Positions 10,324 to 31,551 of a DNA stretch of 40,291 bases are shown one piece after another (position 1 is the first letter of the stretch; every line of letters starts with the position of its first letter). The notes under the pieces were generated by a model. The model saw nothing but the letters and a program-made list of their open reading frames with translations, did not search any database and had not been told where the DNA came from. This DNA comes from Lutibacter sp. (GTDB lineage Bacteria; Bacteroidota; Bacteroidia; Flavobacteriales; Flavobacteriaceae). The stretch is from contig JAUSOJ010000016.1 of NCBI GenBank assembly GCA_030656195.1, positions 1-40,291 on the forward strand. The letters run 5' to 3'. A program made the position numbers and the translations under genes.

Positions 10324-11898
10324 ATGAAAGCAATTTCTGTATTTTTTTTAATGCTCTTACTTCTCATTTCATGCAAAGAGAAAGTGCCGCCTAAAGTTGT
10401 GCTGATTCCTGAAATTGAAATTACGGAAGCCGGAAAAATTATCCCTATAGATTCGTCTAAAATTGCCAAAATTAAAGATTCGAGTGTTATTGCTTTTTAT
10501 CAAGCCAACCAAAACAAAACTTTCTGGATTATCGATCCTTCAAGAAAAAAGATTGTTGCGCTGTTTAATAATGTTCAGGAAGATGGTTTATTTCCGAAAG
10601 ATTTCGACTTAAAAAAAATTCAAGATTCAGAAGAAAATCTATCTAATTTATCGAATTCTGAATTGGCAGATTACGATATTTTACTCACAGAAAATTTAAG
10701 TCGATATGTTCAAAAAGTTTCAAAAGGAAATTTAAATCCGAATAAGCTTTACAGCAATTGGGAATTAAAGGAAAACAAGATCAACTATAAACAATTGCTG
10801 CTCAATTTTCAAAAAAAAGATTCTTTTAACTTTGCCCTTAATTCAGCATCGCCAAACCATATTGTTTATAAACGTCTAAAAGAAGCACTTAAAATTGTAA
10901 ACACCTTGCCAAAAGATGCTTTTAAAAAAATTGAAGTCAAAAATAAAATTGTTTTAAACGACTCCAATCCTGCAATGATTGAAATCAAAAAAAAATTAAT
11001 TTATTGGAAAGATTTAAAACCTTTAGACAGCATTACCGCCATTTATGATGAGGCCACGGAATTGGCCGTTAAGAAATTTCAACTGCGCCACGGACTTGGG
11101 TTGGACGGGGTTATTGGCGGCGGCACTTTACAAGCCTTAAACTTTAACAAAGAAGACCGAAAAAAACAAATTATTGCCAATATGGAACGCTGGAGATGGT
11201 ATCCGAGGGAATTTGAAGATGATTACTTCATTATTAACATTCCCGATTACACTTTGCGTGTTGTTAAAAACGATGATACCATAAGAACTCACAAGGTAAT
11301 TATAGGTCGGCCATCAAGAAAAACGCCTGTTTTATCTTCCAAACTCACCCATTTAATATTCAATCCAACCTGGACCGTTCCGCCAACCATTTTAAAAAAC
11401 GATGTTGTTCCGGCTGCGGCCAGAAACCGAAATTACTTCAGCAGTAAAAATATTACCATTTATGATGCTAACAATCGGGTGGTAAGTCCTTGGGATTGGA
11501 ACGCCAGCAGATCGAGAAGCTATCGTTATGTCCAAAGTCCGGGAGCCGCAAATTCACTTGGATTGGTTAAATTTATGTTTCCGAACCGATTTACCGTCTA
11601 TCTGCACGATACCAATACCCGAGGTTTTTTTGAAAAGGATATTCGCGCATTGAGTTCGGGCTGCATTCGGGTTCAAGATCCGTTTGAACTTACAGCCTAT
11701 ATATTGGATGATCCAGAAAAATGGAATTTGGAAAAAATTGACGAAGCCATAAACACCGGCAAAACATCACAAGTACAAATTAAAAAAGAAGTGTACATTC
11801 ATATTTTTTACTGGACCGCCTGGAGTGAAAATGGCATCCTGCAATTTAGGGACGACCTTTACAGTTTGGATATGGATTTGTATAAGAAGTTGGATTAA
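10324..11898 (+). CDS. YcbB-like murein L,D-transpeptidase lipoprotein
   Basis: A 524-residue periplasmic enzyme expected to make 3-3 cross-links in peptidoglycan or attach proteins to it. Residues 1-17 are a lipoprotein signal peptide with lipobox LLISC (Cys17). A helical scaffold region (about 60-210) precedes a peptidoglycan-binding segment (about 219-275, ending KKFQLRHGLGLDGVIGGGTLQALN). The YkuD catalytic domain (about 300-480) contains NIPDYTLRVVKND, the histidine of YLHDTNTRGFF (His428) and the nucleophile Cys447 in SSGCIRVQDP. This order matches the E. coli YcbB/LdtD architecture. It is monocistronic, with a -7 box upstream, and convergent to a second L,D-transpeptidase. The start codon is fixed by the signal peptide. 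Confidence 0.92.
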   Translation: MKAISVFFLMLLLLISCKEKVPPKVVLIPEIEITEAGKIIPIDSSKIAKIKDSSVIAFYQANQNKTFWIIDPSRKKIVALFNNVQEDGLFPKDFDLKKIQDSEENLSNLSNSELADYDILLTENLSRYVQKVSKGNLNPNKLYSNWELKENKINYKQLLLNFQKKDSFNFALNSASPNHIVYKRLKEALKIVNTLPKDAFKKIEVKNKIVLNDSNPAMIEIKKKLIYWKDLKPLDSITAIYDEATELAVKKFQLRHGLGLDGVIGGGTLQALNFNKEDRKKQIIANMERWRWYPREFEDDYFIINIPDYTLRVVKNDDTIRTHKVIIGRPSRKTPVLSSKLTHLIFNPTWTVPPTILKNDVVPAAARNRNYFSSKNITIYDANNRVVSPWDWNASRSRSYRYVQSPGAANSLGLVKFMFPNRFTVYLHDTNTRGFFEKDIRALSSGCIRVQDPFELTAYILDDPEKWNLEKIDEAINTGKTSQVQIKKEVYIHIFYWTAWSENGILQFRDDLYSLDMDLYKKLD

Positions 11899-11900
11899 AT

Positions 11901-11932
11901 TAATCTTTTATACACCTTAAAAGAAAAGATTA
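11901..11932. terminator. Hairpin between convergent transpeptidase genes
   Basis: TAATCTTTT (11901-11909) pairs with AAAAGATTA (11924-11932), a 9-bp A/T-rich stem with a 14-nt loop just after the stop codon at 11898. It has no clean U-tract, so it is a weak terminator candidate for the plus-strand gene. Confidence 0.35.
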
Positions 11933-12047
11933 CTTCGCTTTGAGAAAAGAGAAAAAAGTCTTTTTAAAATAGTATTGAAATCATTGAAGATTATTGTTTA
12001 AAGTCCGACAGCTTACTTTTAATATCTAATATTTGATATCTTATATA

Positions 12048-12731
12048 TTATGAAGGATAATAAACAAATATGCACGATTTGTCTTTAATGGTATCAATAA
12101 CCTCTTTGGTGAGTTCTTGCGACAAAGCCAAACAGCCCAAGCTTCTGCCCAATCGTCCGTTTTGTTTTGCAAATTGTTCAGAAACATAATCGGCACCGTG
12201 AACCACAATGGCTCTTGCTCTGGCGTTGCTGTTCACTCCTTTATCCATACCGTCCAATCGCAAAGAATAACCGTGTTTACCGTAATACGTTTCTCCGGTT
12301 ACATAAAATCCCAAGCTGCTTTGATAAGATTCGGGCTTGTCGGAAAAATTGGCCGCATATTCATTGCCTGAATTTCTGCCGTGAGAAACCAAAGACTGAT
12401 ATAAAATAATGTTGTTTTTTAGGTCGATGACCCATAACCTATTCTCTTTGGAAGACAAACTATAATCAACAAGGGTTAAAATATCTTTTTGGATAGCGCC
12501 TTTTTCTTTCAACAGAAAGTAGCCTTCCATCGCTTTTGTGAAGCTTATTTTGTTGGGAAGCATAAAATTATTGGTCATCAAATTATGGTAAACAGCATCT
12601 GCTTTAGCTTCATTACTGTTGTTGACAACGGCTTCAATTAATTTTGTGCTTTTTGGTTTAAACGAAAATGCGGAGTTAATTGTAAAGAAAAAAATTCCGA
12701 TTAACAATAGGGAGATTGTTTTATAAATCAT
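12048..12731 (-). CDS. Small murein L,D-transpeptidase catalytic domain protein (YkuD_2-like)
   Basis: A 227-residue exported protein. A signal peptide covers about residues 1-23 (FFFTINSAFSF). The rest is a single catalytic domain of the murein L,D-transpeptidase family found in many Bacteroidetes and Proteobacteria. The histidine is in AIVVHGADYVSE (His178) and the nucleophilic cysteine in GRLGRSLGCLALS (Cys200). There is no peptidoglycan-binding module. It probably acts on peptidoglycan cross-links or protein-to-wall attachment in the periplasm; its exact substrate cannot be told. It lies tail-to-tail with the larger YcbB-like enzyme, to which it is not closely similar. Confidence 0.87.
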   Translation of the reverse strand: MIYKTISLLLIGIFFFTINSAFSFKPKSTKLIEAVVNNSNEAKADAVYHNLMTNNFMLPNKISFTKAMEGYFLLKEKGAIQKDILTLVDYSLSSKENRLWVIDLKNNIILYQSLVSHGRNSGNEYAANFSDKPESYQSSLGFYVTGETYYGKHGYSLRLDGMDKGVNSNARARAIVVHGADYVSEQFAKQNGRLGRSLGCLALSQELTKEVIDTIKDKSCIFVYYPS

Positions 12732-12769
12732 TGTAAATCATTAGGTTTAATATCAAACTTTAAGAGGGC

Positions 12770-12800: not shown

Positions 12801-13094
12801 ACATTGTCAATATATTTTAAAAAATTTAACATTTTGTGTTTTTTGTAAGTAAATTTTTCACCAAAGCAACGGACCTTATGCGTTTTAAAACTTAATTAAA
12901 CCTTTTTTATTGTGTTGCTTTATCATAAATATAGATTTCTTCCTCCTATAGCTTTTAATCTATTGTACATAATTTCAATTTTCTGGAATTGTGATTTTTT
13001 ACTAGTCGCATTCCAAAATATTTGGAACCATCACCTTCAGTAATAAATAATAAATAAGAAATGATAGTAAGTTATTTTAATTTTATATTTTTAC
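12801..13094. other. Intergenic stretch upstream of the GH97 gene
   Basis: No gene was recognised in this A/T-rich stretch. It contains a perfect inverted repeat, TTCCAAA-ATA-TTTGGAA (13011-13027), about 90 bp before the GH97 start. That could be a protein-binding site. No consensus -7 box is visible; TATATTTT near 13085 is the closest. Confidence 0.4.
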
Positions 13095-13113
13095 AAGTGT
13101 ATATAAAACACTT
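13095..13113 (+). promoter_or_regulatory. Candidate arabinose-regulator operator at the GH97 start
   Basis: AAGTGTATATAAAACACTT is a 19-bp inverted repeat (AAGTGT-N7-ACACTT) that ends 3 nt before the ATG at 13117. The same half-sites with the same spacing lie at the araB promoter (21912-21930). A protein bound here would cover the transcription start and ribosome entry region, which fits a repressor. The obvious candidate is AraR, the Nudix-related repressor known in Bacteroidetes; I did not verify its motif. Confidence 0.65.
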
Positions 13114-13116
13114 AAT

Positions 13117-15042
13117 ATGAAAAATAAAATTATCTTGTTTATTTCAGGTCTTTTGCTAATTTCATGTAGCATAAAAAAAGAAAATGCCGTTTTTGTGAAT
13201 CCAACTGAATCTTTGAAAGTTGAATTTAATTTAACCGTTAATAAAACACCCTTTTACAAAGTTTTTTATGAAAACAACCTTGTAATTGATTCTTCCCATT
13301 TGGGAATAATTATGGAACATGCCAATTTTTATGATGAAATGAGCATTGTGAAAATTAGTGAACCTATTCTTGTTGAGGATTCATATTCTATGCTTCACGG
13401 CAAACAAAAAAATATTGATTATAAAGCAAATCAGTATACAGTGCATCTTAAAAATAAGCAAGGTGAATTGATGGATATCATTTTTAATCTTTCAGATGAC
13501 GGACTCGCTTTCAGATATGAGTTCCCTGAAACTTCCAAAGACCTTAAAAAAATAATTGAGGAAAAAACAACCTATAATTTTACCGAAAATGCGAAAGCCT
13601 GGCTTCAACCTATGTCAAAAGCCAAAACAGGATGGAAAGAAACCAATCCGTCTTATGAAGAAAATTACGCCATGGGCGTTCCCGTAAATACAAAACCAGA
13701 AATTGGCGAAGGCTGGGTATATCCTGCTTTGTTTAACTCAAATGACACTTGGATTTTGGTTTCTGAAACCGGACTGCATTCCAACTATAGCGGCACGAGG
13801 TTGGTTTACAATGAAACTTTGGGGGGAATGCAAGTGGCTTTTCCCCAAAAAGAAGAAGTTTTGGATGAAGGCGCTTTAAATCCGGAATCTAAATTTCCCT
13901 GGATTACACCTTGGAGAATAGTAACTGTCGGATCCTTAAAAACAATTACCGAAAGCACTTTAGGGACAGATTTGGCGGACAAGGCAATCGCTATGGATAC
14001 TTCATTCATAAAAAGTGGTTTGGCTTCTTGGAGCTGGGTTTTGCTAAAAGATGATTTTACAAATTATGAAACCTCGATGAAATTTATTGATTATGCCGCT
14101 TCTATGAATTGGGAATACTGCTTAATTGATGCCGATTGGGACGTTAAAATCGGGTATGATAAAATGAAGGAAATGGCCGATTACGCCAAAAGTAAACAGG
14201 TAAAACTTTTGGTTTGGTACAATTCATCAGGAAACTGGAACAGCACCGTATATACCCCAAAAAGCAAATTATTGACACATTCAGACAGAGAGGCTGAATT
14301 TGCCAAACTTCATGAAATGGGCATTGCAGGGTTAAAAATTGATTTTTTTGGCGGTGACGGACAATCGATGATTAACTATTACCACGATATTTTAAAAGAT
14401 GCCGCAACACATAAATTGATGATAAATTTTCACGGCGCAACATTGCCAAGAGGTTGGCACAGAACCTATCCAAATTTAATGACTGTGGAAGCGGTAAAAG
14501 GACAAGAGTTTATCACCTTTTTTCAAGAAACTGCCGATTTACAGCCCAGCCATTGTGCCATGCTTCCTTTTGCCCGCAACGTTTTTGATCCAATGGACTT
14601 CACGCCGATGGTATTGGATTCAATTCCAACCATCACCAGAAGAACAACACCGGCATTTGAACTTGCTCTACCAGTATTGTTTTTATCCGGAATTCAACAT
14701 ATTGCTGAAATTCCTGAAGGTATGGCCAAGCAACCTAAATATGTGGTGGACTATTTAAAAGACATTCCAACAAATTGGGATGAAGCTAAATTTATTGATG
14801 GCTACCCAGGAAAATTTATGGTGATGGCGAGAAAGAAAGACAACACTTGGCATATTGTCGGCATCAATGGAGAAAAAAGCACTAAAGAAATTGAAATAGA
14901 TTTGACGTTTGTTTCAGGCAAAAACGGAATGCTCATTTCCGAAGATGAGAAGGGCTTTAAATTAGACAATATTATTTCATCAACCAACAAAAAATTAATT
15001 GTTAAAATGAAACCTTTCGGTGGATTTGTGGCGAAATTCTAA
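13117..15042 (+). CDS. GH97 glycosidase lipoprotein (alpha-galactosidase / beta-L-arabinopyranosidase type)
   Basis: A 641-residue glycoside hydrolase family 97 enzyme. Residues 1-17 are a lipoprotein signal (LLLISC, Cys17). An N-terminal beta-sandwich (about 25-280), a TIM barrel (about 295-540) and a C-terminal beta domain follow. The barrel has GLKIDFFGGDGQ with Asp409, and NLMTVEAVKGQEF with Glu464. Their 55-residue spacing is the same as the nucleophile/acid pair (Asp415/Glu470) I recall from the retaining enzyme BtGal97b, and unlike inverting SusB-type GH97. Retaining members act as alpha-galactosidases or beta-L-arabinopyranosidases. Next to the arabinan genes, and with the operator it shares with araB, removal of beta-L-arabinopyranose or alpha-galactose caps is likely. 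It converges on the SSS symporter with a shared terminator. Confidence 0.88.
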   Translation: MKNKIILFISGLLLISCSIKKENAVFVNPTESLKVEFNLTVNKTPFYKVFYENNLVIDSSHLGIIMEHANFYDEMSIVKISEPILVEDSYSMLHGKQKNIDYKANQYTVHLKNKQGELMDIIFNLSDDGLAFRYEFPETSKDLKKIIEEKTTYNFTENAKAWLQPMSKAKTGWKETNPSYEENYAMGVPVNTKPEIGEGWVYPALFNSNDTWILVSETGLHSNYSGTRLVYNETLGGMQVAFPQKEEVLDEGALNPESKFPWITPWRIVTVGSLKTITESTLGTDLADKAIAMDTSFIKSGLASWSWVLLKDDFTNYETSMKFIDYAASMNWEYCLIDADWDVKIGYDKMKEMADYAKSKQVKLLVWYNSSGNWNSTVYTPKSKLLTHSDREAEFAKLHEMGIAGLKIDFFGGDGQSMINYYHDILKDAATHKLMINFHGATLPRGWHRTYPNLMTVEAVKGQEFITFFQETADLQPSHCAMLPFARNVFDPMDFTPMVLDSIPTITRRTTPAFELALPVLFLSGIQHIAEIPEGMAKQPKYVVDYLKDIPTNWDEAKFIDGYPGKFMVMARKKDNTWHIVGINGEKSTKEIEIDLTFVSGKNGMLISEDEKGFKLDNIISSTNKKLIVKMKPFGGFVAKF

Positions 15043-15057
15043 GAAACATATTACAAC

Positions 15058-15084
15058 AAAAAAGAGGGCATTGCCCTCTTTTTT
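15058..15084. terminator. Bidirectional rho-independent terminator
   Basis: A perfect 12-bp stem (AAAAAAGAGGGC at 15058-15069 with GCCCTCTTTTTT at 15073-15084) and a 3-nt loop, flanked by A-runs and T-runs. It lies between the convergent GH97 gene and the 3' end of the ara operon and can serve both directions. Confidence 0.88.
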
Positions 15085-15111
15085 TAATACTTAAACTAAT
15101 TTTACAATAAC

Positions 15112-16731
15112 TTAATTACCATTAAAAAATATCATAACTCCTATTACTATGGCAACAACCAAAATAGATACCGCTATGTCAACCCAAGTATAACTATTCT
15201 TATTTTTAATCCTTTCTTCTTCGGTAATAGTGCCAAATGTAAGATTTTCCACTTTTTCTTCAGTTGGTGCTTTGGTCAATAAACTCACAATAATGGTAAG
15301 GATGATACAGAATAAAAAGAACCATGCCCCGAAGGTTAAGAAATTCATATCTCCCAACTTAAACAATAAACCTTTAGGGTCTAAGGAATCTTTTGTCAAT
15401 TCCAATACAATTCTGAAGGCCCCCACAATAAAACCAACAACCAATGTAACGAAAGCCCCTTGGCCGTTAATTCGTTTATGAAATATTCCCATAAGGAAAA
15501 CTGCCACAATAGGAGGTGCAATATAAGATTGTACTTTTTGTAAATACTCATACAAAACTCCTGAAATATTAGCCATAATAGGAATCCAAATAATACCAAT
15601 AATTACCACAATTACTGTTGCAATTTGTCCGGTTCTTACCAATTTTTTTTGAGGTGTATTTGGTCTTAGTTTTTGGTAAATATCTACCGTAAATAAAGTT
15701 GATACCGAATTAAAGACCGAAGCTAAAGAACTCATCAATGCCGCCAACAATCCGGCAGCAACCAATCCGCGCAATCCGGAAGGCAATAAATTACTCATAA
15801 GCACAGGAAAAGCCTGATCGGGCGTATCGTAATGCAATTCGCCACGCATTTTTAAGGTAACCGCAATAACACCTGGTACTAAAAATAAAAATACAGGGAG
15901 TAATTTCAACAAAGCGCCAAAAATGGTTCCCCTTCTTCCTTCTGTTATGTTTCTGGCCGTTAAAGTACGTTGCACAATATATTGGTCTGTACACCAATAC
16001 CACACACCCACAATGGTGCTGGTAATAAACAATGCCGGCCACGGAAACTCTGGATCCGAAGCAGAACGCCACATATTTAAATACCCAGGTTCTAAGGTTT
16101 CTTTCATACTTCCCCAACCGCCAACGTGTTCCAAACCAATATACGTTAAAGCTCCTGCACCAATCACTAAAATAATAGCTTGCAGCGTTTCGGTATAAAC
16201 TACCGCTCGCATACCGCCAATTACCGTGTAAATTCCTGTCAGAATTACCGTTGCAATGGCTCCTGTCCAAAAATCAATGCCAAGCAATGCAGAAACTACG
16301 ATACCACCGGCGTAAATAGTAACTGAAATTTTTGTAAGTACATAGGCAATAATAGAAAATACAGAAAGAATCCAACGTGATCTTGCATCAAATCGTTTTT
16401 CCAGAAACTCTGGCATTGTAAATACGCCACTTCTCGCATAAAATGGCAAAAATACCCAACCTAAAAGGAGAACAACCCAAGCCTGGATCTCATAAATAAG
16501 CATCGGTAATTTGTTCCCTGCTCCAGCTCCTGCCAATCCAACAACATGTTCAGAACCTATATTGGATGCAAAAATGGATGCTCCCACAACAAACCAGCCT
16601 ATATTTCTGCCTGCCAGAAAATAATCTTCCGTATTTGCCTGTCTTTTACGTACTACCCAAACAACAATTCCCAGCAATACCAAGAAATAAATTCCGATGG
16701 ATACCCAATCTAATGCGTCAAGTGTTTTCAT
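15112..16731 (-). CDS. Sodium/solute symporter (SSS family), probable L-arabinose importer
   Basis: A 539-residue inner-membrane protein with about 13-14 hydrophobic segments, typical of the SSS family (vSGLT-like). The N-terminus (DWVSIGIYFLVLLGIVVWVV) and ASNIGSEHVVGLAGAGAGN are characteristic; the latter precedes the Na+/substrate-binding core. It is the last gene of araB-araD-araA-galM-SSS, only 4 nt beyond galM. By context it takes up L-arabinose with Na+; this is inference, since SSS substrate specificity cannot be read from sequence. It is one of two symporters in the locus, the other being the GPH protein at 25.2-26.5 kb. Confidence 0.9.
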   Translation of the reverse strand: MKTLDALDWVSIGIYFLVLLGIVVWVVRKRQANTEDYFLAGRNIGWFVVGASIFASNIGSEHVVGLAGAGAGNKLPMLIYEIQAWVVLLLGWVFLPFYARSGVFTMPEFLEKRFDARSRWILSVFSIIAYVLTKISVTIYAGGIVVSALLGIDFWTGAIATVILTGIYTVIGGMRAVVYTETLQAIILVIGAGALTYIGLEHVGGWGSMKETLEPGYLNMWRSASDPEFPWPALFITSTIVGVWYWCTDQYIVQRTLTARNITEGRRGTIFGALLKLLPVFLFLVPGVIAVTLKMRGELHYDTPDQAFPVLMSNLLPSGLRGLVAAGLLAALMSSLASVFNSVSTLFTVDIYQKLRPNTPQKKLVRTGQIATVIVVIIGIIWIPIMANISGVLYEYLQKVQSYIAPPIVAVFLMGIFHKRINGQGAFVTLVVGFIVGAFRIVLELTKDSLDPKGLLFKLGDMNFLTFGAWFFLFCIILTIIVSLLTKAPTEEKVENLTFGTITEEERIKNKNSYTWVDIAVSILVVAIVIGVMIFFNGN

Positions 16732-16735
16732 ACTC

Positions 16736-17923
16736 TTATTTTACAGAAAATTTAAATGAAGTTTTTGAGCTATATTTTTCCCCTGGGTTTAAAACCGTTG
16801 AAGGAAAATCTTTCTGGTTTGGGGAATCGGGATAGTGCTGTGTTTCCAAACAAAATCCGGTTCTGTGTGCATACGTTCCGCCAGTTTTGGATGGCAATGT
16901 TCCGTCTAAAAAGTTACCGGTATAAAATTGAATTGCAGGCTCATCAGAATAAATTTCAAGCAACCTTCCGCTTTCTGGATGATAGGCTGAAGCCGCTAAT
17001 TTAAAACCTACATTTTGATCATTCAACACCCAGCAATGGTCGTATCCCAATCCTTTTTTCAATTGGTCATCTTTTGTTTCAATATCTTTTCCAATAATTT
17101 TGGCTGCTCTAAAATCGAAAGGCGTACTTGTTACATCAGCTAATTTTCCTGTTGGAATTAAAGTTGCATCAACCGGAATATAGGTATCGGCATTAATGGT
17201 GATTTCGTGGTCCAAAATTGTTTTTGAAAAATTGGCCGACAAGTTAAAATAAGAATGCTGCGTTAGATTTACGATGGTTTTTTTATCGGTAGTCGCTTCA
17301 TAAAGCACCTCTAAAGTGTTGTCATTTGTAAGTGTATAAGTGACCACGGCAGTCATATTTCCCGGATAACCTTCTTCCATATCCTTGCTTAAATAAGTCA
17401 GTTTTAAGGACGCTGTGCTGTCTCCTTGTATGGCAACTGCCGTCCAAACCACCTTGTCGAAACCTTTTACGCCACCATGCAAATGATTGGCTCCATCATT
17501 TGTCGCCAATTTATACTCGGTACCATCCATGGAAAATTTTCCTTTTGCAATTCTGTTTCCGTATCGGCCTATAATGGCACCAAAATACGGATTGTTTTTT
17601 GTGTAATGTGCAAGGGAATCGTAACCTAAAACAACATCTTCATACAAACCATTTTTATTTGGCGCTTTTAAAGAAGTGATGATTCCGCCATAAGTAATTA
17701 CATCCACTTCCATCCCTTTTTGGTTTTTTAGCGTGTAATTATCAACGCTTTCTCCTTCTGGCGTGGTGCCATAAGATGCCTTTTCTATAGTTGGAATTTC
17801 CATTTTTTGTGTATCGGTTACTTCATTGTTTTTTTCTTCTTTTTGATTGCCCTTACATTGAATGCTAATGATGGCAAAGAGCATTATGCCAAAACCGTAC
17901 AGGTAACTTTTTTGAATATTCAT
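16736..17923 (-). CDS. galM: Aldose 1-epimerase (mutarotase), exported
   Basis: A 395-residue mutarotase that interconverts alpha and beta anomers of aldoses. The catalytic domain (about 50-395) has ITSLKAPNKNG, the substrate loop GRYGNRIAKGKF, NHLHGGVKGFDK with an active-site histidine, and the second histidine in LTQHSYFNLS. An N-terminal hydrophobic stretch (residues 8-22) indicates export. Cys23 follows ISIQ, a poor lipobox because Gln is at -1, so lipidation is uncertain. It lies 26 bp after araA and 4 nt before the symporter gene. A periplasmic mutarotase would supply the anomer preferred by the transporter. Spacing shows it is part of the ara operon. Confidence 0.93.
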   Translation of the reverse strand: MNIQKSYLYGFGIMLFAIISIQCKGNQKEEKNNEVTDTQKMEIPTIEKASYGTTPEGESVDNYTLKNQKGMEVDVITYGGIITSLKAPNKNGLYEDVVLGYDSLAHYTKNNPYFGAIIGRYGNRIAKGKFSMDGTEYKLATNDGANHLHGGVKGFDKVVWTAVAIQGDSTASLKLTYLSKDMEEGYPGNMTAVVTYTLTNDNTLEVLYEATTDKKTIVNLTQHSYFNLSANFSKTILDHEITINADTYIPVDATLIPTGKLADVTSTPFDFRAAKIIGKDIETKDDQLKKGLGYDHCWVLNDQNVGFKLAASAYHPESGRLLEIYSDEPAIQFYTGNFLDGTLPSKTGGTYAHRTGFCLETQHYPDSPNQKDFPSTVLNPGEKYSSKTSFKFSVK

Positions 17924-17949
17924 AATTTAGTTGTCTGTTTAATTATTTA

Positions 17950-19458
17950 TTATAGGCCATGCTGAAATAAGTGATAATACACTTCATTCGCATTTAGTTT
18001 ATCCTTAAAATCCCTAATACTTGTATTTGCATCAATGACAAGCAATTCAATCCCTGCGATATCCGCAAAATCCTCCATATATTCAGTTGTAACGGATTGG
18101 CTGTAAACTGTATGATGCGCACCACCTGCCAAAATCCAAGCAGTTGCCGCAATTTCCAAATTTGGTTTAGCATCCCACAAAACCCTTGCTACCGGAAGTT
18201 TTGGCAAATCTGCCATCGGTTTAACCGCTTCAACCTCGTTTACAATCAATCTAAATCTGTTGCCCATATCAACCAAAGAAGCATTGATGGCATTTCCCGG
18301 AGCAACATTGAATACCAATCGCGCAGGATCTTCTTTACCTCCAATTCCTAAAGGATGCACTTCACAAGAAGGCTTTCCTTCCGCAATTGACGAACAGATT
18401 TCCAACATATGCGACCCTAAAACATAGGATTTTTGAGGTGTAAAATGATAGGTATAATCTTCCATAAATGAAGTTCCGCCTTCCAATCCAATATTCATCA
18501 CTTTCATCGCTCTAACCATGGCTGCCGTTTTCCAGTCGCCTTCGCCACCAAAGCCATAGCCATCAGCCATTAGGCGTTGCACTGCAATTCCCGGTAATTG
18601 TTTCAATTCACCCAAGTTTTCAAAAGTATCCGTAAATGCTTTGAAACCGCCTTCCTCTAAAAAAGCTCTTAAACCCAATTCTATTCTTGCGGCATCAACC
18701 AAAGAATGTCTTTGTGCGCCGCCTTTTAAAAGTGATGGCGTTAAATTATAGGATGATTCATACACTTCCAGCAGATTATTTAAATCGCTTTCTGAAACTT
18801 TATTGATTTGTTTAACAACATCCGAAGAATCAAATCCATTAACTGAAAAACCAAAACGGATTTGCGCTTCAACTTTATCGCCTTCCGTTACGGCAACTTC
18901 ACGCATATTGTCTCCAATTCTGGCAACTTTTAAATGTTGCAATTCATCCCAGCCCAATACCACTCTTGACCAAACGCCCAATTTTTTCTGAACGCCCTCT
19001 TCTTGCCAATGGCCCACAACAATTTTGCGTTTTTTACGCATTCTCGACATGATAAATCCAAATTCCCTGTCGCCATGAGCCGACTGGTTTAGGTTCATAA
19101 AGTCCATATTCATTGTTGACCAAGGAATTTCCGCATTAAACTGCGTATGTAAATGACACAACGGTTTGTTTAAAATAGACAATCCGCGAATCCACATTTT
19201 TGCAGGTGAAAAAGTATGCATCCAAGCAACAATACCGATACAATTGTTATTTGCATTGGCTTCCTGACAAACATTGGTAATTTGATCTGGCGTTTTTACC
19301 GTTGGTTTAAAAATTATTTTAACAGGAATATGTGCTGATGCATTTAATCCTTTTACAATTTGTTGTGAATTTTCTGCAACTTGTTTTAGCGTTTCTTCAC
19401 CATATAAATGTTGGCTTCCTGTAACAAACCAAATTTCTTTTTGAGCTATATCTATCAT
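17950..19458 (-). CDS. araA: L-arabinose isomerase
   Basis: Converts L-arabinose to L-ribulose in the cytoplasm, the first step of catabolism. The 502-residue length is standard. The N-terminus [20 protein letters not shown] and the segment [21 protein letters not shown] are diagnostic, as are [30 protein letters not shown] and the C-terminal [15 protein letters not shown]. It is the third gene of the ara operon, 27 bp after araD. The ATG at 19458 gives the canonical start. Confidence 0.98.
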
Positions 19459-19485
19459 TTTTGAAAAATGTTTTTTGAATATTAA

Positions 19486-20187
19486 TTATTGACCGTAGTA
19501 GGAATCTTTTCCATGCTTACGTTCGTAATGCTTTTTTATTAGTGAATCTTTAAGTCTAGGCGCATTCGGGTTTATTTGTAAGGTTAAATAAGCCATATGT
19601 GCAACCGTTTCTAAAACTTTACTGTTATAAACCGCTTTTGCGGCATCTTTTCCCCAAGTAAAAGGACCGTGATTTCCAATAAGCACCATTTCAACTTCTT
19701 TATAGGAAAGACCTTTATTTTTGAAACAATCCAATATTTGGATGCCTGTGTTGTGTTCGTAATTTCCTTTTATGAGTTCATCACTCATTGGCGGCGCGCA
19801 AGGAATATCGGTTGTTAAATGATCTGCATGGGTGGTTCCGAATATTGGAATGTCCAATTTCGACTGTGCCCAGGCAACTGAATAGGTTGCATGTGTATGG
19901 GCAATACCGCCTATATCATTCCAGTTTTTATACAAATAGGCATGCGTTTTTGTGTCGGATGACGGGCGCATTGTGCCTTCAATAATGTTATTCTCAAAAT
20001 CTAAAATAACGATGTCTTCAGGTTTAAGCAACTCATAAGGAACGCCGCTTGGTTTTATGGCGAAAACACCTTTTTTCCTGTCAACGGCACTCACATTTCC
20101 AAAAGTGTAGATCACCAAACCCAATGCATTCAACTGCATATTGGCTTCGTAGCATTCTTGCTTTAATTCTTTATATATGGAACTCAT
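19486..20187 (-). CDS. araD: L-ribulose-5-phosphate 4-epimerase
   Basis: Class II aldolase-family enzyme that converts L-ribulose 5-phosphate to D-xylulose 5-phosphate, delivering carbon to the pentose phosphate pathway. It is 233 residues, as usual. Visible motifs are FGNVSAVDRKKGVFAIKPSG near the N-terminus (phosphate site), HTHATYSVAWAQ, and GTTHADHL, which supplies zinc-binding histidines; a later NHGPFTWG carries the third histidine. Its start overlaps the 3' end of araB by 17 nt, suggesting translational coupling. Cytoplasmic. Confidence 0.97.
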   Translation of the reverse strand: MSSIYKELKQECYEANMQLNALGLVIYTFGNVSAVDRKKGVFAIKPSGVPYELLKPEDIVILDFENNIIEGTMRPSSDTKTHAYLYKNWNDIGGIAHTHATYSVAWAQSKLDIPIFGTTHADHLTTDIPCAPPMSDELIKGNYEHNTGIQILDCFKNKGLSYKEVEMVLIGNHGPFTWGKDAAKAVYNSKVLETVAHMAYLTLQINPNAPRLKDSLIKKHYERKHGKDSYYGQ

Positions 20188-21865
20188 TGACTTTGGATTT
20201 TTGGGTTATATTTTCTGCAAAAAAACTTAATTCATCATAAGATTTCATCAGTTTTTCATAAATGGCCACTTTATCAATTTCAGGGAAATAGGTCGCTTCA
20301 AAATCGCTTCCCATTTTTTTGCTGGCTTCAATTACATCCGCATAAATTCCGGCTGAAACTGCTGCATAAACTGCTGCGCCTAGTGCCGGCGCCTGATCTG
20401 ATGCGGCAACTTTTATAGGTTTGTTTAACACATTGGCAAGGGTTTGCATAATAAAAGGTGATTTTCTTGCCACGCCTCCAATGCCTATTACACTATTTAT
20501 TTTTACGCCTTCCTCCTCAAATCTGTCCACTATTTTTTTAGACCCAAAGCATATTGCATTTACAAGCGCTTTAAAAATATGAGGCGCTTTGGTGCCTAAT
20601 GATAAATTTGAAATCGCGCTTTTTAGTTCTTGGTTGGCATCCGGCGTTCTTCTTCCGTTAATCCAATCCAGCGCTGTAGGAATACTTTCTGATAATGGGA
20701 TTTTTTCGGCCTGTTCGCTTAATTTTTCAATGAAGTTGGCCTCCATTTCTGCTTTCAACTGAGTTTTTTGCAGTTCATTAAGTACTGAAGAATTGAGTAT
20801 TAAATTGTCTACTGGCCAGGATACTATTTCTTTAAACCAAGCCAATACATCGCCAAAAGCAGATTGCCCCGCTTCCAGTCCAATATATCCAGGAATTACG
20901 GAACCATCTACTTGTCCGCAAATTCCACGAACAGTTTTTGAGCCTATAACTTCTTTTGAAGATACAATAATATCACAGGTTGAAGTTCCCATGACCCGTA
21001 CCAAAGTATGCTCGTCTATTTTGGCGCCAACGGCTCCTGAGTGTGCATCAAAAGTTCCTACTGCAATTACGGTGTCGGTAGTTAACCCTAATTTTGTTGC
21101 CCATTCCGAACTTAAATTTCCGGCAACCACATCAGAAGTATAAGTCTCCTCATATAAATTTCCGCGAAGTTGCGCAAGATATGGATGCAACTGGCCTAAA
21201 AATTCTTCAGCCGGCAAACCATTCCATTCTTCATGCCACATCGCTTTATGTCCAGCTGCGCATCTGCTTCTTTTAAATGATTGTAAATCTTTATTTTCAA
21301 TCAATAAATAAGTTATTAAATCACAATGCTCCATCCAAGTGAAAGCAGCATTTTTTACAGCTTCATCTTCTCTTATGATGTGCAATATTTTTGCCCAAAA
21401 CCATTCAGAAGAATAAATTCCGCCTTCATATTTTGTATAATCAACGCCTCCCCAACTTACGGCAAGTTCATTAATTTCATTGGCTTCCTTAATAGAAGTA
21501 TGGTCTTTCCAAAGCACCATCATTGCATTTGGATTGGTTTCAAAACCTTTAACCAAAGCCAACGGTGTTCCATTTTCAGAAACAGGAATTGGTGATGAAC
21601 CTGTGGTATCTATGCAAATGGCTTTTATTTGGGACGGATTTACATTTCCGTTTTTTACCACATTTTTTATGGTATTTTCCAATCCTTCAATATGATCTAA
21701 GGGATGCTGGCGAAATTGATTTTTTGAAGCATTGCAAAAGTCTAAATTTTTCCATCGCTGATACCAATGAACATCCGAAGACAATTCTTGTCCGTTATCT
21801 GTATCAATCAAAACTGCCCGAACAGAATCTGTTCCATAATCCAATCCTATAACATAATTTTTCAT
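20171..21865 (-). CDS. araB: L-ribulokinase
   Basis: FGGY-family kinase that phosphorylates L-ribulose with ATP, 564 residues. The N-terminal domain opens with YVIGLDYGTDSVRAVLIDTDNG (phosphate loop). The middle has VIAVGTFDAHSGAVGAKI, and the C-terminal domain has IGIGGVARKSPFIMQTLANVLNKPI and DQAPALGAAVYAA, the ATP-site segments. It is the first gene of the ara operon, with a promoter and the AAGTGT-N7-ACACTT palindrome directly upstream, and overlaps araD by 17 nt. Cytoplasmic. Confidence 0.97.
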   Translation of the reverse strand: MKNYVIGLDYGTDSVRAVLIDTDNGQELSSDVHWYQRWKNLDFCNASKNQFRQHPLDHIEGLENTIKNVVKNGNVNPSQIKAICIDTTGSSPIPVSENGTPLALVKGFETNPNAMMVLWKDHTSIKEANEINELAVSWGGVDYTKYEGGIYSSEWFWAKILHIIREDEAVKNAAFTWMEHCDLITYLLIENKDLQSFKRSRCAAGHKAMWHEEWNGLPAEEFLGQLHPYLAQLRGNLYEETYTSDVVAGNLSSEWATKLGLTTDTVIAVGTFDAHSGAVGAKIDEHTLVRVMGTSTCDIIVSSKEVIGSKTVRGICGQVDGSVIPGYIGLEAGQSAFGDVLAWFKEIVSWPVDNLILNSSVLNELQKTQLKAEMEANFIEKLSEQAEKIPLSESIPTALDWINGRRTPDANQELKSAISNLSLGTKAPHIFKALVNAICFGSKKIVDRFEEEGVKINSVIGIGGVARKSPFIMQTLANVLNKPIKVAASDQAPALGAAVYAAVSAGIYADVIEASKKMGSDFEATYFPEIDKVAIYEKLMKSYDELSFFAENITQKSKVNEFHI

Positions 21866-21888
21866 TCAAAAATCTTTTAATATAATTA

Positions 21889-21896
21889 CAAATATA
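21889..21896 (-). promoter_or_regulatory. Putative -7 box of the araBDA-galM-SSS operon
   Basis: Read on the minus strand this is TATATTTG, a full match to TAnnTTTG, 24 nt before the araB ATG. The operator palindrome occupies the place where the -33 region should be, so a bound repressor would block RNA polymerase. Confidence 0.55.
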
Positions 21897-21911
21897 ATAT
21901 AATTATTTAAT

Positions 21912-21930
21912 AAGTGTATAAAAAACACTT
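21912..21930 (-). promoter_or_regulatory. Candidate arabinose-regulator operator upstream of araB
   Basis: AAGTGTATAAAAAACACTT, the same AAGTGT-N7-ACACTT palindrome found before the GH97 gene; here it extends one more base pair on each side (T/A). It lies immediately upstream of the -7 box of araB. AraR is the expected binder, by inference from other Bacteroidetes; no regulator gene is in this window. Confidence 0.7.
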
Positions 21931-28732: not shown

Positions 28733-30073
28733 TTAATTAATTTGAATGTTTATTAAATCATATACTTTCTCTAAATATTCAGTATACAAGGGGTCTCTTT
28801 TAAACATATTGATATAAAAAAGAACAATTAAATCATTTTCAGGGTCAATAATATATTCCGTACCTAACATACCGCCCCATGAAAAAGCTGAATTTGAAAC
28901 AGCTTTGATATGCTTATTTTGCTCATTTGCAAGTTGAAATCCCAATCCGAACTGAAAACCTTTTCCTCCAGAATTTACTTCTGGCAAACGATTTACAGTG
29001 GTCATTTGAATAACTGTTTCAGGTTTAAGGATACGGTTTCCATTAAATTCACCATTATTCAATAACATCTGACAAAACTTGGCATAATCCTCAATGGGAC
29101 CATTTAATCCAATGGCAGCTTCAGCATAGGTTTGTTTACTGCTAACCGCAGCTTCAGCATACATGGTTGAACCTGTATCTAACTTGCCATCAACAGCGCT
29201 ATATGGTTTTACAAATCGTGTTAAATAATCAGTCGTAAAATACCAGTTTGTATCTTTCATGCCCAAAGGTTCAAATATGGTTTCTTTAACATATTCTTGT
29301 AAAGGTTTTCCCGATATCCGCTCAATCATATACCCTAACATATTAGTGCTTACGTGGTAATTCCACTCTGAACCGGGGTCAAAACCGAGCGGGTATTTTA
29401 CCAAGTCTAACATCTCTTCTGATAGATAGTTAGACTCTGAATTCCCTCCAAAACTACGTTGTCCATTAGGTATGTTGTCGGGTAAGACGCCTCCAAATCC
29501 CGCTGGAGCACTATTTTTTTCTCCATTTTTACGGCGAATTTCACCCACCAATCCGGCATTTAATCCAGATGTATGTGACATCAGGTGAGCAAAGGTCATT
29601 GGTGTTTTGACCAGACGGGTTTCATAAGTACCATCCTCATTCACTTTAGTAACCACTTGGTTAGGAATTTCAGGGAAATATTTGGACACAGGGTCATCAA
29701 CCGCTACCAATCCTTTATCAACAAGTGTCATAAATGCAACGGTAGTAATGGCTTTGGTTTGAGAAAATAACACATAATAATCATCGATTGCTGCTGGAAT
29801 ATTATTCTCAACATCTTTTAGCCCAAAAGCTTTGCTATAGATTACATTTCCTCCTTTAGCAACAAAAGCAGTAACACAATTTAATTGCTTATTATCGATA
29901 TACGATTGCAGTAAAGAATCCAAACTTATTATTCCTCCGCTATTTATTCCAAGTTCTTTAAAATCAGCATTTTTATTAAGACTTTGGGGCAGACCTACTT
30001 GTTGATTCGAAGTGGTTTTACAACCATAAGAAATTAACAGAAGTAAAAGCAATACAACATTTAATTTTTTCAT
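28733..30073 (-). CDS. Serine hydrolase lipoprotein (class C beta-lactamase / family VIII esterase fold)
   Basis: A 446-residue beta-lactamase-related protein. The start at 30073 gives the lipoprotein signal MKKLNVVLLLLLLISYGC (Cys18). The SxxK motif is SQTK (Ser104, Lys107). The second motif region is SEWNYHVSTNMLGYMIE (Tyr239), the Y-x-V-S version common in esterase-like members rather than the YxN of lactamases. SHTSGLNAGL is also characteristic. It lies inside the PUL, between the alpha/beta-hydrolase-DUF3237 gene and the GH127 gene, so a carbohydrate-esterase role is more likely than antibiotic resistance. Substrate unknown. Confidence 0.85.
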   Translation of the reverse strand: MKKLNVVLLLLLLISYGCKTTSNQQVGLPQSLNKNADFKELGINSGGIISLDSLLQSYIDNKQLNCVTAFVAKGGNVIYSKAFGLKDVENNIPAAIDDYYVLFSQTKAITTVAFMTLVDKGLVAVDDPVSKYFPEIPNQVVTKVNEDGTYETRLVKTPMTFAHLMSHTSGLNAGLVGEIRRKNGEKNSAPAGFGGVLPDNIPNGQRSFGGNSESNYLSEEMLDLVKYPLGFDPGSEWNYHVSTNMLGYMIERISGKPLQEYVKETIFEPLGMKDTNWYFTTDYLTRFVKPYSAVDGKLDTGSTMYAEAAVSSKQTYAEAAIGLNGPIEDYAKFCQMLLNNGEFNGNRILKPETVIQMTTVNRLPEVNSGGKGFQFGLGFQLANEQNKHIKAVSNSAFSWGGMLGTEYIIDPENDLIVLFYINMFKRDPLYTEYLEKVYDLINIQIN

Positions 30074-30131
30074 TTTATATTTTTTAAAGCTTATCAAAAC
30101 ACATCGTCTGACAAATTGTTAAGTTCAAAAA

Positions 30132-31487
30132 TTAGAGCACTTTCCATATCTGAATCGACACATAATCCATTTTTCCAACTGGCTTACAAATAAAAATAGC
30201 ATTATTTAGCCAATCATATTTGGAGTTTATAGGCGCTTCGAATTTAGGGGCTGTCCGAAAATAAATAGCTGATGAACCCAAGGAACTGCTCACTTCACTA
30301 TCCTTAGGAATATAAAGCAAACCAACATTGCGGACTTGAATCAACACATTGTCATCCGTTTTGATGGTGTATACTGCATCTAATTCAGTCCGTTCTCCAT
30401 TTCTGCTTATATATTGATAGTCTGCACCACCTTTAAGTACACTGCCTTTTAATTTGGGCCCTTCAAATGTTCCGCCAGATATTGGGATGATGACTCTTTC
30501 CCCTTGAACCGTTTCTCCCAATTTAATCGGCTGGTCTATTGTTACTTTCAATTCGCATGTAAACTCTAAATCAGGCGCAATATATTCCTGAGAAATTGAA
30601 CGCTCCCAAAAAATCGAAGAAGAAAAGTTCTTGGTTTTCATGGTCCATCCTGGGTAAGAACCTAATTCAGATTTCAAAAAGACCGTAGAAATTTCATTTT
30701 TATTTTTAAACTGCCAGTCAAGCCAATCAAGCGTGATACGAGCAAATGAACCTCCAAACTCCTGATCAAAAGTTCCTCCATGTCCACCGTCAATCAAATT
30801 TGCAAAAGCAATTGGAACGTCGTTAATTCTTTCAAAATCTAAAAGCGCATTGTTATATGCAATATCTGTTTCACCTCCAACAATATAAATTATACTGCCA
30901 TGCAATGAATTTAAAGATTCTTTGTTGGCTCCTGCCATGGTCATGTCGCCCATACCAGAATTAAACATCATGTTTGTTTTTACACGACTGTCATCAGCAA
31001 TGGCCATCACTTGAGCTCCACCGCAAGACATTCCACAAGAAGCTATTTTATCCAAATCTACCATTTGATAATAATCACTGTTTTTATTATTCGCCTGTTC
31101 CGAAATCCAATCAATTCCCTCCAAAAGCTTTTTATTGGCAGTAGGTTCATGAACTCGTTCTTCTACGGTCATTTGCAATTCACCAATGGCTATAACAATA
31201 TATCCTCTAGAAGCAACTTCAGTTAACAACCTTTCATGATGAATAGAAGAATTCATACATCCACCATTCGCCCATATCAAAATGGGTAATTCACCCTCGG
31301 TTTTGGTTGCTAGTTTGATATCATAGGGGCGATATACAACAAAATTGGGCAGTGTTTTTTCTGATGCTGCAATAGCTTTATAAGGACCACTACCCCCATT
31401 GTCTATTATTTTAATTTTCTCAATTTGTCCAAAACTATATATTGTAAGCAAGAAAAATAACAAAACCAAAACTGTGTCTTTTTTCAT
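30132..31487 (-). CDS. Secreted alpha/beta-hydrolase fused to a C-terminal DUF3237 domain
   Basis: A 451-residue exported protein; the start at 31487 gives a signal peptide (residues 1-20, cut near YSFGQ). The N-terminal alpha/beta-hydrolase (about 45-265) has an oxyanion-side IWANGGCMN, the nucleophile elbow GMSCGG (Ser154), Asp208 in GGETDIAY and His236 in DGGHGGTF: a complete triad. Residues about 305-451 match DUF3237 as I know it (ISGGTFEGPKLKGSVLKGGADYQ in part, YFRTAPKFEAP, YDWLNNAIF). DUF3237 has no known function to my knowledge. In this PUL the hydrolase could remove feruloyl or acetyl esters from pectic arabinan, an inference from position. Neighbours are a GH43 upstream and the serine hydrolase downstream. 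Confidence 0.82.
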   Translation of the reverse strand: MKKDTVLVLLFFLLTIYSFGQIEKIKIIDNGGSGPYKAIAASEKTLPNFVVYRPYDIKLATKTEGELPILIWANGGCMNSSIHHERLLTEVASRGYIVIAIGELQMTVEERVHEPTANKKLLEGIDWISEQANNKNSDYYQMVDLDKIASCGMSCGGAQVMAIADDSRVKTNMMFNSGMGDMTMAGANKESLNSLHGSIIYIVGGETDIAYNNALLDFERINDVPIAFANLIDGGHGGTFDQEFGGSFARITLDWLDWQFKNKNEISTVFLKSELGSYPGWTMKTKNFSSSIFWERSISQEYIAPDLEFTCELKVTIDQPIKLGETVQGERVIIPISGGTFEGPKLKGSVLKGGADYQYISRNGERTELDAVYTIKTDDNVLIQVRNVGLLYIPKDSEVSSSLGSSAIYFRTAPKFEAPINSKYDWLNNAIFICKPVGKMDYVSIQIWKVL

Positions 31488-31551
31488 ATTTTTTCGTCTG
31501 TTTTGCAAATTGCTTTCGCTAAAATTAATATGTGTTTTGATAATTTCATTT

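Follow-up and report, generated by a model that had tools for sequence, protein, structure and literature searches.

Predicted AraR operators at a GH97 glycosidase gene and an L-arabinose catabolic gene cluster of Lutibacter sp.

Two copies of one palindrome at arabinose utilisation genes

The stretch of DNA analysed here (the window, 40,291 nucleotides) is one whole contig (C42; JAUSOJ010000016.1) of the 2.92-Mb genome of Lutibacter sp. (G000; GCA_030656195.1). It carries a gene for a glycoside hydrolase of family 97 (GH97) convergent with an araBDA-galM-SSS cluster, each preceded by a copy of the palindrome AAGTGT-N7-ACACTT. An earlier note on this DNA, made from its letters alone, had proposed this arrangement, and Pfam agrees on GH97, SSS, galM-like, araA, araD and araB. 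Both 19-mers lie where the note had placed them, with identical arms, 7-bp spacing and a single spacer difference on the plus strand; its title named them in reverse order, the first site belonging to GH97 and the second to araB. We conclude that these palindromes are very probably operators of an NrtR-family AraR whose gene lies on another contig of this genome, C323. The features are as follows.

13086..13093, plus strand: candidate -7 box TATTTTTA at GH97, matching TAnnTTTG at 5 of 6 positions, one base upstream of the operator
13095..13113, plus strand: predicted AraR operator AAGTGT-ATATAAA-ACACTT at GH97, ending 3 nt before the ATG at 13117, as the note had said (motif search, conservation)
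13117..15042, plus strand: GH97 glycosidase (Pfam, structure, alignment with BT_3661)
15112..16731, minus strand: SSS-family sodium:solute symporter, convergent with GH97 (Pfam)
16736..17923, minus strand: galM-like aldose 1-epimerase, an araM-like mutarotase (Pfam)
17950..19458, minus strand: araA, L-arabinose isomerase (Pfam)
19486..20187, minus strand: araD, class II aldolase family (Pfam)
20171..21865, minus strand: araB, ribulokinase of the FGGY family, with its ATG at 21865 (Pfam)
21889..21896, minus strand: candidate araB -7 box TATATTTG, 15 nt downstream of the operator
21912..21930, minus strand: predicted AraR operator upstream of araB, AAGTGTTTTTTATACACTT read toward araB (motif search, conservation)
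C323:11987-12721, minus strand: araR, NrtR-family AraR relative (domains, match to 5bs6)
C323 (L016) 12748-12766 and 12813-12831: araR/susC intergenic sites, hybrid, one mismatch each (motif scan)

Occurrence of the motif in the genome

The window alone suggests a shared operator, and the genome-wide and comparative evidence is decisive. The exact motif occurs three times in the genome, versus once for a reversed-pattern control: before GH97, before araB, and at C323:9047, where a transketolase gene (tkt, 9203) and then a transaldolase gene (tal) follow. All three exact copies precede genes of arabinose or pentose-phosphate metabolism. There are eight one-mismatch copies, two of them between araR and a divergent susC-type TonB-dependent gene that extends past the end of C323, and six inside open reading frames of at least 100 amino acids. 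The genome scan that the note had called for thus found the motif upstream of araR/susC (one mismatch) and of tkt-tal (exact), and the many matches at unrelated genes that the note thought would speak against a regulon did not appear, the six non-ara one-mismatch matches all lying within open reading frames. Of the local regulon that the note had drawn around GH97 and araBDA-galM-SSS, the shared operator stands; the word local does not, with tkt-tal and araR/susC on another contig. Looser searches were uninformative: up to three mismatches gave 27 matches in the window versus 21.5 expected, not above chance, and up to two gave 148 in the genome versus 207 in the reversed control, no excess, so that two-mismatch sites were left unused. 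A two-mismatch scan also brought out another palindrome, AAATGTTC-N3-GAACATTT, which recurs in this genome at no fewer than four places (C73:8045, C83:20907, C118:16069 and C122:15275).

An AraR relative encoded on another contig

AraR, the candidate named in the note, is borne out by an AraR relative in the same genome and by a motif equal to the published operator of Bacteroides thetaiotaomicron AraR (BtAraR). The palindrome arms and spacing match the BT0365 site, whose gel-shift-tested oligonucleotide contains AAGTGTAAAAAAGACACTT, with the AAGTGT-N7-ACACTT motif (PMC4666351). In the same work, L-arabinose abolished AraR binding to the BT0356 fragment, and the predicted AraR regulon covers araMPRDAB, susC/D and GH97 genes (PMC4666351). 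As the note had said, araR is absent from the window. Its product on C323 has Nudix (PF00293), NrtR_WHD (PF21906) and AraR_C (PF19368) domains above cut-off, and its best solved relative is BtAraR, 5bs6 (E = 1.2e-68; 104 of 220 aligned residues identical, 47%). It is the only AraR match in the genome at E <= 1e-20. The residues that hydrogen-bond L-arabinose (R34, R86 and H131) are kept 3/3, as are six of the seven hydrophobic contacts (Y5, F36, G47, G48, F49, V92 and F129, with V92 replaced by Thr) and the recognition-helix core K179-R180-N181. R34, R86 and H131 are also kept by a clade of paralogues, so the arabinose contacts alone do not separate the C323 protein from these. In a regulator tree built without XylR sequences, the node joining BtAraR to the C323 AraR clade has a support of 0.17.

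Conservation of the sites among relatives

The note had named lack of conservation in related genomes as a ground for rejection, and the sites turn out to be kept in relatives and congeners. Named genomes supplied 80 GH97 relatives, and in the 400 nt upstream of the gene the 15 closest all carry the operator, 11 exactly and four with one mismatch. Six genomes of the genus encode an AraR of at least 70% identity (G000, G005, G012, G020, G028 and G032; G028 is identical to Lutibacter sp. B1, NZ_JAAZUI010000002.1, over 15,587 compared bases), and an exact site is present in 6/6 of them versus 4/32 others in the genus (Fisher test, 8e-5). In the stretches fetched from congeners, not all of which contain every gene, copies of the site again precede GH97, araB, tkt or tal, araR and susC; the G005 stretch stops just past araB and contains no GH97. 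An exact operator also stands upstream of transaldolase genes away from araR at L175:3589 (G032) and L176:3390 (G012), which supports pentose-phosphate genes as AraR targets.

Exact matches in four genomes of the genus without a 70% AraR were taken as chance or unrelated: the spacers are G+C-rich in G011 and G021, and the 7-8 kb fetched from G017 and G029 contain no query gene. None of the query genes was found in the fetched stretches of G056, G039 and G074. Exact matches occur in G066 and other order-level genomes as well. Three genomes from other families of the order (G073, G088 and G118) have 6, 7 and 6 exact sites per genome, possibly marking larger NrtR-type regulons.

Position of the operators relative to the promoters

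We aligned 19 GH97 loci selected for carrying a site, the window included (14 exact, five with one mismatch). In 18 of these, 3-6 nt separate the operator from the GH97 ATG, and in one the gap is 10 nt; at L093 an additional in-frame ATG abuts the operator. At all 19 loci a box resembling TAnnTTTG at 5 or more of 6 positions ends no more than two bases short of the operator, where 1000 shuffles gave a mean of 1.6 and a maximum of 6, and the same box is found at the operator edge in 5/5 tkt-type sites. The TAnnTTTG consensus for the -7 element comes from B. fragilis, where it was deduced, and has been confirmed in F. johnsoniae; the commonest leader in B. thetaiotaomicron is 23 nt long (PMC7366714). 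At araB the arrangement is reversed: a box of at least 5/6 lies 14-16 nt downstream of the operator in 14 of 16 loci and 9 nt downstream in one, with none in L166 (G005), these spacings being counted without a shuffle control.

Judged by the position of the box, transcription of GH97 probably starts within the stretch covered by the operator. With a short leader, an operator so placed would end a few bases before the ATG, and the position that the note had called unusual is both conserved in relatives and expected for short Bacteroidetes leaders. The note's location of both sites in promoter or start regions is supported by their placement at the promoters of arabinose utilisation genes and by between-species conservation.

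The GH97 enzyme and the surrounding genes

The solved sequence closest to the GH97 protein is 5xfm (E = 1.5e-139, the next being 2.4e-41), which we take to be the same protein as BT_3661. An AlphaFold2 model built from 29 sequences (predicted local distance difference test, pLDDT, 88) superposes on 5xfm, a 'beta-arabinopyranosidase', with a template modelling score (TM) of 0.94; a single-sequence model was discarded at a pLDDT of 37. D409 and E464 are invariant in the 29 sequences and align with D408 and E463 of BT_3661, its potential nucleophile and acid/base (PMC12102758). From its sequence and modelled fold, the enzyme is predicted to be a beta-L-arabinopyranosidase/alpha-galactosidase that frees L-arabinose, and this resemblance to an L-arabinose-releasing enzyme is why it fits an AraR regulon.

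The DNA upstream of araB carries an arabinan-type locus, which comprises arabinofuranosidase-type, GH43 and GH127 genes, a major facilitator superfamily transporter and SusD (Pfam). Within it, positions 28733-31508 encode a Beta-lactamase-family (PF00144) protein and a DUF3237/chlorophyllase-like protein. On the other side, at 10324-12731, two L,D-transpeptidase genes (YkuD and YkuD_2) adjoin GH97, outside the regulon as far as seen.

Proposed control circuit and rival explanations

With the sites, their conservation, the promoter-like geometry, the relationship of the regulator and the gene content obtained directly, we infer AraR binding, repression, arabinose induction, operon structure and enzyme specificity. 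In the proposed circuit, an AraR dimer would occupy each palindrome when L-arabinose is absent. At GH97 and transketolase the dimer would follow immediately on the -7 box and cover the transcription start and leader; at araB it would bind some 15 nt before the -7 box, across the upstream promoter region. L-arabinose would then release AraR, and GH97, araBDA-galM-SSS, transketolase-transaldolase, and araR with the adjoining susC would be induced jointly.

Several observations weigh against this interpretation. Three of the six base-contacting residues differ from those of BtAraR (K184S, K204R and R205K), so the six are not all identical, although they have been called absolutely conserved in AraR orthologues (PMC4666351). 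The seven-member clade of the C323 AraR has S or N at 184, R or T at 204 and K at 205, and we treat six-residue identity as a descriptive statement and not as defining AraR. Among the more distant GH97 homologues (the next 65, of which 64 had enough upstream sequence), only 3/64 have a site within one mismatch. The araB site of the nearest congener, G005, is degenerate, with an AAGTTT arm, and G067, which belongs to another genus and has an AraR of 71-73% identity, has one-mismatch sites only. The araR and susC sites show no good -7 match at their edge (0 of 6 sites each), and the selection of the aligned GH97 loci and the missing shuffle control at araB count on the same side.

Of the other ways to explain the palindromes, a chance pair of AT-rich palindromes has a negligible probability. 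Some identical-arm 6-N7-6 palindrome pair does arise in 24/60 (order 2) and 28/60 (order 3) Markov-simulated windows; with at least two G/C in the arms this falls to 3/60 and 2/60, and the exact motif appeared in none of 60 order-2 and 60 order-3 runs, the order-2 expectation being one match in 30 Mb, or about 0.1 per genome. Chance is already contradicted by conservation, since position and arms are kept across genera while the surrounding upstream DNA has diverged, and it does not account for the further exact site at tkt or for the pair of near matches at araR/susC. It is extremely unlikely that the palindromes instead act in RNA, as a 5' leader hairpin or a terminator or attenuator near the GH97 start codon. 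Pairing of the 6-bp arms is feasible, at -4.3 kcal/mol in the GH97 leader, and at araB the fold somewhat surpasses its shuffles (z -1.41, 19/200 shuffles as good), but at GH97, tkt and susC it gains no stability over them (z -0.37, -0.40 and +1.27). The araB site is upstream of its -7 box and would not be transcribed from that promoter, the susC copy (AAATGT...ACACTT) disrupts the 6-bp pairing, and no T-run follows the GH97 site. We rejected an RNA element on the ground that it does no better than shuffles at 3/4 sites.

A different DNA-binding regulator, whether an NrtR-family paralogue (XylR or galactose-type), a Crp-like protein or a hybrid two-component system, is very unlikely. NrtR paralogues of about 50% identity that keep the arabinose hydrogen-bonding residues do occur in the genus, and XylR sequences were outside our comparison. 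Against this, the one AraR match of the genome adjoins two of the sites, most sites of the paralogues without Lys179 are AAATGT-N7-ACATTT, and the published Crp-like motif TATGTTnTAnAACATA (PMC3878776) differs, a comparison made between motifs only, without a scan for Crp-like sites. The predicted AraR control of the GH97 and araB promoters represents the known AraR regulon in the Flavobacteriaceae (Lutibacter), a known kind in a new lineage, and as a circuit it is well conserved and essentially ordinary.

Hybrid operators and residue 179

Across the six same-genus genomes, 11/12 araR and susC sites have one AAATGT half and 0/12 have two AAGTGT halves. In contrast, 34/42 sites at GH97, araB, tkt and tal are perfect, six are hybrid (four GH97, two tkt-type) and two have other mismatches. 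This hierarchy of hybrid araR/susC versus perfect catabolic sites is a tendency, strongest in Lutibacter, and the hybrid operators are possibly weaker sites. Beside 13 Lys179-type regulators, 17/22 sites are hybrid.

In the AraR-DNA structure, Lys179 contacts the G at the third operator position (PMC4666351, Table 2). A sister clade has D, S, A, T, G or M at residue 179; at its 16 loci galT adjoins in 10 and hisG in three. Wider stretches were taken at three such loci; in two the regulator is followed by galT, galK and a symporter, and in the third its neighbours are histidine genes. Near this clade, 14/15 sites within one mismatch are AAATGT-N7-ACATTT, with none at 4/16 loci. A wider set comprised 115 distinct regulators, drawn from 30 loci of a first search, 25 new loci of a second, and 60 of the 85 second-search places without a locus. 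With K179 and a typeable site, 33/36 have a G half (the exceptions are L198, L200 and L270; 44 more have no such site), and without K179, 1/14 does (L054; 21 more have no such site). As related sequences are not independent and K179 may have been lost mainly in one event, this covariation is only a lead.

Tentatively, AraR and the galactose-operon paralogue might form a natural one-base recognition switch, in which Lys179 reads G (AAGTGT) and the clade without it reads A. The paralogue would then be an undescribed galactose repressor, and the hybrid araR/susC operators would give weaker autoregulation or cross-talk between sugar circuits. The odds of this are lowered by the hybrids at 6/42 catabolic sites. 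AraR paralogues without Lys179 lie beside galT at L041, L045, L049, L052, L054, L184:1356-5993 and L186:6082-10899, with AAATGT-N7-ACATTT-type or near palindromes close by, as candidate NrtR-family galactose repressors; galK and an SSF symporter are also present at L184 and L186. No NrtR or Nudix galactose regulator was apparent from the titles and abstract openings of the papers listed, nor in passages of PMC3878776 and PMC5507952.

Significance and comparison with known systems

These predictions carry the Bacteroides AraR regulon into the Flavobacteriaceae, with a promoter-level picture of where the repressor would be placed. A literature search by title and abstract opening, with subscription papers and RegPrecise outside it, showed no AraR regulon in this family among the papers listed, and a stricter search gave no paper. 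They also tie a GH97 gene to L-arabinose release and add transketolase-transaldolase as a likely target, so that an arabinose-releasing enzyme would be switched on together with the genes for arabinose breakdown. If true, the Lys179/base covariation would make the AraR-DNA crystal structure the basis of a testable specificity code, with a new sugar regulator as its prediction.

The known system closest to this one is that of BtAraR (BT0354, NrtR family; PMC4666351). As there, the operator is AAGTGT-N7-ACACTT, the regulator is a Nudix/winged-helix protein with conserved arabinose-contact residues, the ara catabolic operon includes a mutarotase and a symporter, and GH97 and susC/D genes are among the predicted targets. 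Unlike in Bacteroides, the Lutibacter gene order is araBDA-galM-SSS with araR on a separate contig, and araB has a single operator where Bacteroides araM has a tandem pair. The Lutibacter AraR differs at the three base-contact residues given above, and its predicted targets include transketolase-transaldolase, neither word of which occurs in the main text of PMC4666351. The Lutibacter operator abuts the GH97 ATG, in a comparison that left Bacteroides GH97 genes outside. The GH97 protein itself is most like BT_3661/5xfm, a GH97 beta-L-arabinopyranosidase/alpha-galactosidase, which is its best match in sequence and fold and whose catalytic pair aligns with its own; it differs from 5xfm in being 36-37% identical and in having a predicted AraR site at its gene.

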